Origin: Tridacna crocea
Lineage: Eukaryota > Mollusca > Bivalvia > Cardiida > Cardiidae
Assembly: GCA_943736015.1 (NCBI GenBank)
Contig: OX031064.1
Span: 59,069,861 to 59,133,860 of the forward strand
Direction of reading: 5' to 3'
DNA length: 64,000 nucleotides
Each line of letters starts with the position of its first letter. Within the stretch, counting starts at the first letter, position 1. The notes below the pieces were generated by a model, which worked only from the letters and a program-made list of their open reading frames with translations, had not been told where the DNA came from and did not search any database. This document shows positions 5,927 through 7,330 of this stretch, piece by piece. Made by a program: the position numbers and the translations under genes.

Positions 5927-6257
5927 TAAACCAATTCTAGTCTCAGAATTTCCATGAGGTAATTGCAGTAGACAATATCCAAGAATTTCTTCATGATGTA
6001 AAAGGCAAGACAAATACAGCTGTACAATCTTTGTGATTTGATGCTACTTTCAAATTGAAAATTAATCAGATCTCGCAAATAGTTTTATTTTATTTATACA
6101 GTTTAGCGAGCCAATTATGTATAATTCTTAATGGGCTAAAATGATATGAAAGATAAATATATATTTTAGAGAATTTTGTATTTTTTACTTTGCATTGGTA
6201 CATGTTTATAGGAAAATTTACACAAAAATGTGGCAGATATAAGCCTTGTAGTAGCAG
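5927..6257. other. Intergenic, nothing recognised
   Basis: AT-rich spacer 3' of HOGA1. No ORF, RNA gene or repeat could be supported here. Confidence 0.6.
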
Positions 6258-6376
6258 TTAACACTTTACCACACAATCCTGACTTTTAACAACCCTGTAA
6301 AAGAAGACTTTTGAAAACATTCTTACGAACAAAGTCCGTAACAAAGAAACAAATGAATAAATGCATGGCAGAAATA

Positions 6377-6460
6377 AGGATCGGAGCGGGATTCGAACTC
6401 CGAACTCCCGGACGCAAAGCCAATACCCTAACCACTGAGCCAAAGAGATATCTCCCTGAC
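6377..6460 (-). promoter_or_regulatory. tRNA-like pol III promoter inside the first LTR
   Basis: On the - strand, TGGCTCAGTGG (A box, at 6432-6442) is followed by GTTCGAATCCC (B box, at 6388-6398). The arms do not fold as a proper tRNA (no matched acceptor stem), so this is a tRNA-derived promoter and not a tRNA gene. Confidence 0.7.
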
Positions 6461-6698
6461 GCAGTAGCCAGGTATTGTATTTAAATCGGGAGAATGCCAT
6501 GCAGGAAGGAGTGGTCTCCCGTAACACACCCCCTCTTAAAGTCATCATTTATTGATGACTCAAAGCCTTATTAGGCAGGAAGTCCAATTTTGGACAACAA
6601 ATGGGATTAATGGCTCAATGGCCAATCCCGGACGAGCCCCCATCTTACGAACAAAGTCCGTAACAAAGAAACAAATGAATAAATGCATGGCAGAAATA

Positions 6699-6782
6699 AG
6701 GATCGGAGCGGGATTCGAACTCCGAACTCCCGGACGCAAAGCCAATACCCTAATCACTGAGCCAAAGAGATATCTCCCTGAC
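6699..6782 (-). promoter_or_regulatory. tRNA-like pol III promoter inside the second LTR
   Basis: The same segment as in the first LTR. The single difference between the LTRs falls in the A box region (GTGATT instead of GTGGTT). Confidence 0.7.
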
Positions 6783-7330
6783 GCAGTAGCCAGGTATTGT
6801 ATTTAAATCGGGAGAATGCCATGCAGGAAGGAGTGGTCTCCCGTAACACATTGTGGGAAAAGGAGAAAATGCTGGTAACCAGCATTTTCTCCTTTTCCCA
6901 AAATGTTTTCTACTCTTCCAAAAACAAATTTCAATTTATCAGTCACCTATGTTCTGTCGACAGCAAATGCGTTCAATTTGGGGAAGTCTAAAAGTGTTGT
7001 CATTTGGTAGAGAGTTAAACACAGATTATCATTTGAAAAAGGAACTGGTCTATGGCTGCCTTATTTGTATACTGTTTAATGTCTCTCAATGGATGTTATC
7101 CTCCACACATGGTGATAGCCGTAAGAAAGAGACCAAATCACTTTGTGTGATCCTGAAAGCTGAAGCGGCCCAGATTTGTTCTGCCTTCTACAAAGCTATT
7201 TCAAGTCAACCATAATGCATTTTTGAACATTTTGAATGTGTCTGAACCTAGGACTGAAACATAGTTGCCTTGTCGCAGGAACAGGAAAAAACAGTGTAGG
7301 GCTGTAACTCCTGGGCTGGTGCTCAATAGA

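Follow-up and report, generated by a model that had tools for sequence, protein, structure and literature searches.

The TRIM found in the window (the 64,000-nucleotide stretch of Tridacna crocea DNA analysed here) belongs to a Helenus-type family with roughly 3,400 copies in this genome; some members of the family are fused to a Gypsy element and some form palindromic insertions. We explain these observations, with a probability of roughly 70%, by a TRIM RNA that would start at LTR positions 73-77, a Gmr1-like Gypsy that would act as its helper, and dimers of strong-stop cDNA that would give rise to the palindromes, with pol III as the most likely polymerase. The TRIM alone is a further Helenus-type element; what is new are the helper fossils and the palindromes.

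The element occupies positions 6321-6848, its sense strand being the minus strand, on which all its features are given. It is 528 bp long and consists of a 5' LTR (6643..6848, 206 bp, TGTTACG...CGTAAGA), an interior of 116 bp (6527..6642) and a 3' LTR (6321..6526, 206 bp). The original prediction described 208-bp direct repeats (6321-6528 and 6643-6850) with one difference, around an interior of 114 bp. The single difference is real, but the length had to be revised because the last 2 bp are coincidental, as the genome copies show; the LTR ends were fixed from the 4-bp target duplications (TSDs) of these copies. The mismatch is at LTR position 95, where the A box ends in GA in the 5' LTR and in the canonical GG in the 3' LTR. 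The 18-nt primer binding site (PBS, 6625..6642) abuts the 5' LTR and would pair with the 3' end of a tRNA-Pro(AGG) encoded in the same genome, its sequence being complementary to the final 15 nt of the gene followed by CCA, in agreement with the tRNA-Pro primer site that had been proposed; ARAGORN found this gene in one of the two loci examined (exact sites listed, n=6). The purine tract reported at the opposite end is the polypurine tract (PPT) TTTAAGAGGGGGTG at 6527..6540, adjoining the 3' LTR. The TSD of the window copy is imperfect (AATG/ATGT), with AATG at 6849..6852 beside the 5' LTR and ATG at 6318-6320 on the far side, where one A was apparently lost.

Each LTR contains an A box (LTR 85-95) and a B box (LTR 128-138) downstream of a TATA-like sequence (LTR 42-49), as had been claimed. 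These are TGGCTCAGTGA (6754..6764, its final base departing from the consensus), AGTTCGAATCC (6711..6721) and TTTAAATA (6800..6807) in the 5' LTR, and TGGCTCAGTGG (6432..6442), AGTTCGAATCC (6389..6399) and TTTAAATA (6478..6485) in the 3' LTR. The self-complementary 10-mer GAGATATCTC, at LTR 73-82 (6767..6776 in the 5' LTR and 6445..6454 in the 3' LTR), is the putative start of R and the axis of the palindromes described below; an imperfect palindrome is already present around it in the ordinary LTR. Dinucleotide shuffling of the LTR yielded a pair of boxes of this quality (each with at most one mismatch, spacing of 20-80 nt, either strand) 3 times in 10,000. The earlier view, a TRIM whose LTRs contain a promoter of the tRNA type, is upheld. 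The promoter had also been called tRNA-derived, and here the boxes stand while the tRNA itself does not: ARAGORN found 0 tRNAs across the window and no Rfam match at E<=1 within 6200-7000 was a tRNA, so that the likeness to tRNA is confined to the promoter boxes. The same Rfam matches included no 5S, the promoter type of Cassandra and Ajax. Neither AATAAA nor ATTAAA is present in the LTR, and the predicted fold of the R-U5 RNA is no more stable than those of shuffled sequences (z -0.80).

The TRIM lies at the edge of one copy of a hyper-abundant, near-perfect hairpin repeat (6851-6909; throughout 1-64000) composed of GCATTTTCTCCTTTTCCCA and its inverse. The window contains 147 matches to this motif (<=3 mismatches), which form 65 pairs spaced 26-30 bp apart. 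No insertion preference for the hairpin repeat was found, with 6 motifs in 6,080 bp beside elements vs 110 in 100,144 bp of flank.

To place the element in its family we searched the genome (1.049 Gb, 31 contigs), and obtained 7,265 LTR cores and 3,403 interior cores (<=3 mismatches in 26), the reversed controls giving 0. All 40 scored matches, from 1,085 candidates, were near full length with the order LTR-INT-LTR, an order also seen in all 38 loci selected via the whole element or the interior. Perfect 4-bp TSDs flank 36 of these 38 loci, or about 33 of 35 independent ones, L032/L033 being a single insertion and L023/L024 and L037/L038 having common flanks. The census of copies that the original prediction called for was made with 30 exact LTR seeds from the start of one contig, which correspond to 21 insertions: 13 are LTR-INT-LTR, 2 are three-LTR tandem arrays, 5 are solo LTRs and 1 is rearranged (L040). 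The solo LTRs of this sample are tailless, and a perfect 4-bp TSD encloses each of the five. In 53 non-redundant units the median divergence between LTRs is 1 base and 24 pairs are identical; these units, picked because they matched best, had an identical interior or contained the exact LTR core, are young and related by virtue of that choice and do not constitute independent tests.

The copy structure refutes the reading of the element as two tRNA-derived SINEs in neighbouring insertions, which we regard as having practically no chance of being correct. An A/B box pair in each repeat is what such SINEs would display, and the original prediction had named mostly single 208-bp units with tails as the outcome that would point to them. 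Instead, the 7,265 LTR cores are accompanied by the 3,403 interior cores, 15 of the 21 LTR-seeded insertions (the 2 tandem arrays included) contain LTR-INT-LTR, a PBS and a PPT are present, the TSDs around LTR-INT-LTR are uniformly 4 bp and the solo LTRs are tailless. Single units with a 3' tail and a variable TSD were not found among the genome copies examined. We are therefore next to certain that the element is a Helenus-type TRIM.

The proposal of an animal counterpart of Cassandra holds for the design and not for its novelty, since the design is that of Helenus (Kojima 2024, PMC10886601). According to the parts of that report considered here, Helenus elements are TRIMs of animals, fungi and one plant, with 51 families in bivalves, where tRNA-Pro is among the primers; the animal families have 4-bp TSDs, and the molluscan ones come from Pteriomorphia (PMC10886601). 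Our element is likewise a short non-coding TRIM with two LTRs, tRNA-like A and B boxes in each, a PBS matching tRNA-Pro, a PPT and a 4-bp TSD; the solo LTRs, the tandem arrays, the lack of a functional tRNA in most cases and the proposal of a Gypsy helper in animals are further points in common (PMC10886601). In those parts, assignment to Helenus uses the boxes and tRNA similarity, pol III transcription not being validated there, and the helper was proposed via PBS similarity, whereas here chimeric insertions link TRIM and helper (PMC10886601). The terms 'palindrom', 'inverted' and 'transcription start' are absent from its main text as far as covered. Cassandra of plants and Ajax of nemerteans, the other TRIMp3 groups, also have the promoter of a small-RNA gene in TRIM LTRs, but this is a 5S rRNA promoter in place of the tRNA-type boxes seen here (PMC10886601, in part).

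We also considered identity with biv-TRIM, another bivalve TRIM, with repeats of 202-218 bp, tandem arrays and solo repeats (PMC6934838). The sections of that paper covered give an interior of 77-80 bp, no clear PBS, a PPT that is mostly GGGGAGA and no helper found, and its main text, to the same extent, does not contain the word 'polymerase' (PMC6934838). The conserved biv-TRIM segment TGATCCCAAAGGAC is absent here within 4 mismatches on either strand, as is GGGGAGA, and with the 116-bp interior this rules out identity. A separate observation concerns a related Helenus family that is older and whose A and B boxes are further apart, the longer spacer lying around CCTCGAAAAACGAGG (L051:2584-2813; L075; L111, L113, L114, L116). 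This family makes palindromes too, some of them mixed with the shorter family.

The route to a helper was a search for the TRIM PBS followed by a base other than T, which gave 210 sites. The 8 examined first comprise five TRIMs (2 of them tandem), a Gypsy element (L076), a chimera (L072) and a palindrome of the related family (L075). The helper copy (C1:35629543-35635772; n=1) was read stretch by stretch. Its LTRs are TGTTATG...CGTAACA and its TSD is ATTA, its PPT CAAGAGGGGAAG is placed like that of the TRIM, the same PBS as in the TRIM follows after a 5-nt spacer, and it encodes integrase followed by RT and RNase H. A SCAN domain was found on L077, which is 97.4% identical to the helper copy over 1.2 kb. 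SCAN in gag and integrase upstream of RT are features of Gmr1-like Gypsy elements in the parts of the literature covered (PMC8220671, PMC4131045), and for the helper the domain order and the SCAN domain point to that group. TRIM and helper have the same PBS and similar PPTs and LTR termini, and the bodies of their LTRs differ: that of the helper contains 14 TTTT and one AATAAA, and neither box was detected in it with up to 2 mismatches allowed. The portion of the Helenus report covered describes a comparable fungal pair, LTR-1_PTrit and Copia-9_PGr, in which interior sequence is common to TRIM and helper and the LTRs are not; there the entire TRIM interior matches the Copia element, (PMC10886601), whereas here the stretch in common with a Gypsy amounts to about 21 nt at the PBS, besides the similarity of the PPTs.

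Direct traces of contact between the two elements were found as fusions in which the end of a TRIM LTR and the PBS are followed by the Gypsy leader (16 sites with <=2 mismatches; control 0). Two of the 16 belong to the palindromic loci L072 and L078, and 11 of the remaining 14 were examined. The search pattern itself fixes the joint, and the loci add the flanking LTR and leader: in all 11, a whole TRIM LTR precedes the joint (from base 1, or from base 3 in L141), and Gypsy leader follows it, reaching gag except in L142, L143 and L146, where it ends after only some 40-135 bp. The reverse fusion, Gypsy LTR-PBS-TRIM interior, is present in L141 and L142. Positions 153-901 of L142 form a mosaic of TRIM LTR, Gypsy leader, Gypsy LTR, PBS, TRIM interior and TRIM LTR. 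With only about 21 bases shared between the two elements, strand transfer inside one particle is the most likely source of the fusions, and very probably the SCAN-gag, Gmr1-like Gypsy is the helper in the manner described.

The second class of unusual insertions consists of palindromes in which two R-U5 arms stand head to head about the centre of GAGATATCTC (LTR 77/78). The first three (L040, L072 and L075) came from LTR and PBS searches that were blind to the axis, and the axis is common to all. A 44-mer across it matched 55 sites, each on both strands, and its reversed control 0; 44-mers for two alternative axes only, LTR 100/101 and 50/51, matched 0 sites each, although the design of the 44-mer fixes the axis and the 100/101 control would miss B-type arms. 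A count of 1,076 from a 32-mer was discarded in favour of the 44-mer, because ordinary LTRs of one subfamily are merely 3 mismatches away from the 32-mer.

We examined 46 of the 55 palindromes. Full arms terminate at the LTR end, with extra bases near the axis in L096 and L110. Some palindromes are solo, others continue on one side as palindrome-PBS-interior-LTR, and L089 has interiors on both sides. The sequence beyond the PBS may also come from the helper: in L072 the palindrome and PBS are followed by Gypsy gag, and in L078 one palindrome is flanked by Gypsy sequence at one end and by TRIM sequence at the opposite end. In L087 and L075 the PBS is followed by other sequence, and in L084 the PBS bases CGGGAT are joined into the B box of another LTR. 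L072 and L077 are the two ends of one 3.8-kb element (G000:C2:32619977-32623784) that has the TSD ACTA and a TRIM palindrome at either end; it contains a PBS, and its open gag(SCAN)-integrase frame breaks off upstream of RT. Its right-hand palindrome, in L077, joins integrase coding sequence without a PPT, for which the dimer model given below does not account. In L100 (336-360), an arm turns again at the B-box TTCGAA into a second LTR, which suggests an extra fold-back site.

Perfect 4-bp TSDs flank 24 of the 46 palindromes, corresponding to 23 insertions, of which 11 are solo, 11 one-sided and one two-ended (L072/L077); the solo ones include L114, which is old, and L092, which is without part of one arm, and among the one-sided ones L040 and L080 were read by eye. 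The remaining 22 palindromes, which are truncated, tandem, composite or old, show no perfect TSD; L091 matches at 3/4 positions, and L117, with a 4-bp match and poor arm ends, was left out of the count. By the diagnostic letters of the spacer, the two arms belong to different subfamilies in 20 of the 46 (18 loci) and to the same one in 19, with 7 left without assignment; 4 of the 20 depend on one diagnostic base (A/C), and one arm of L115 is short. The combinations are A/A, C/C, A/B, A/C, long/long and short/long, and the arms of L081, L083 and L113 come from two different Helenus families. The insertions thus include units with LTR ends on both sides and a TSD of the length typical of the family, joints at the PBS, and palindromes made from two template sequences.

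The palindromes are probably reverse-transcription dimers. We propose that the TRIM RNA has its 5' end at about LTR 73-77, within the self-complementary 10-mer, and that it is packaged, primed with tRNA-Pro and integrated by the Gmr1-like SCAN-gag Gypsy. The palindromic RNA 5' end would give minus-strand strong-stop cDNA a self-complementary 3' end, by which the strong-stop cDNAs of two co-packaged RNAs may sometimes pair and extend on each other. The product would be a 258-bp U5-R:R-U5 DNA with an integrase end at either side, and copying 18 nt of the tRNA into its plus strand would create a PBS end. Such a dimer could be integrated as is, or its PBS end could make the second strand transfer to TRIM or Gypsy minus strands. 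It is from this reading of the palindromes as paired strong-stop cDNAs that an RNA start around LTR 73-77 would follow. Snap-back of a single molecule as the sole source was rejected, since the arms can be of different subfamilies. In the sections of a study of HIV-1 covered here, minus-strand strong-stop DNA also self-primes and gives aberrant products, but these are tied to the TAR stem-loop and abortive, whereas the dimer proposed here would come from two molecules and be integrated (PMC4668388). Palindromic strong-stop insertions or TRIM chimeras did not appear in the part of the literature covered, which includes portions of PMC4668388 and PMC5651808.

We weighed two other origins for the palindromes. 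Template switching in chromosomal DNA at the quasi-palindrome of the LTR, outside reverse transcription, could make use of the imperfect palindrome that pre-exists around LTR 73-82, and it could be reflected in L103 and L112, which retain U3 beyond a short palindrome and for which the dimer model does not account either. It is nevertheless improbable as a general source in view of the 23 insertions in which a perfect 4-bp TSD encloses an entire palindromic unit, the full arms that end at the LTR end, the fusion via the PBS to TRIM or Gypsy interiors and the arms of different subfamilies in 20 of the 46. Slightly less probable still is a single event that founded one self-spreading family of transposable elements. 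The similar palindromes at both ends of L072/L077, within one TSD as in a real LTR element, would suit such a family, but the diversity of arm types, from A/A to short/long, calls for many origins. Reverse-transcription dimers thus remain our preferred source. With odds that we put slightly better than even, they may represent a recurrent alternative branch of reverse transcription, yielding either mirror-image solo elements with divergent pol III promoters or portable two-way LTRs that capture TRIM or Gypsy interiors via the common PBS.

The axis also bears on the choice of polymerase. Genes of the tRNA type start 8-12 nt upstream of the A box, which is where the putative RNA start lies, and the same place is about 30 nt below the TATA-like TTTAAATA. 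Judging from the sequence, we moderately favour transcription of the TRIM by pol III from its A and B boxes. On the transcribed strand TTTT occurs in 0 of the 53 units and AAAA in 52 of 53. Dinucleotide shuffles of LTR plus interior contain a mean of 5.66 TTTT (P=0.003; single-base shuffles are weaker, P=0.043), and those of R-U5-INT-LTR a mean of 10.28 (P 0.000 of 5,000; 0.004 with single-base shuffles). In a pol III element with identical LTRs, a terminator inside the LTRs would be expected to cut the element short. The group as a whole does not always lack TTTT, because 9 of the 12 arms or LTRs read from the older related family contain it in the spacer that separates the A box from the B box.

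It is possible, though rather unlikely, that the same TRIM is transcribed by pol II from TTTAAATA and that its boxes are the passive remnant of a SINE inserted in an ancestral LTR. The TATA-like box at LTR 42-49 would place a pol II start at the same spot, and its mean major-allele frequency in the 53 units is 0.995 vs 0.985 for the whole LTR, while the stretch 125-135, which overlaps the B box, shows no more conservation than that LTR mean (0.981). The B box is one base off the consensus, as is the 5' A box of the window copy, and the TTTT that follows the A box in the older family would also fit pol II. Against this, the older family keeps its A and B boxes though the spacer between them has been replaced, TTTT is lacking on the transcribed strand of all 53 units, and the LTR is without AATAAA or ATTAAA, whereas the helper LTR has AATAAA.

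Two questions about pol III-type TRIMs are which element mobilises them and whether their RNA begins at the tRNA-like promoter. Both leave fossils in this one genome, with the PBS fusions connecting the TRIM with a single lineage of Gypsy and the axis of the palindromes indicating a putative RNA 5' end to within a few bases. The palindromes further suggest how strong-stop cDNA could end as a stable insertion and how genomes could acquire perfect inverted repeats and two-way promoters, and they warn that some MITE-like palindromes may be products of reverse transcription.
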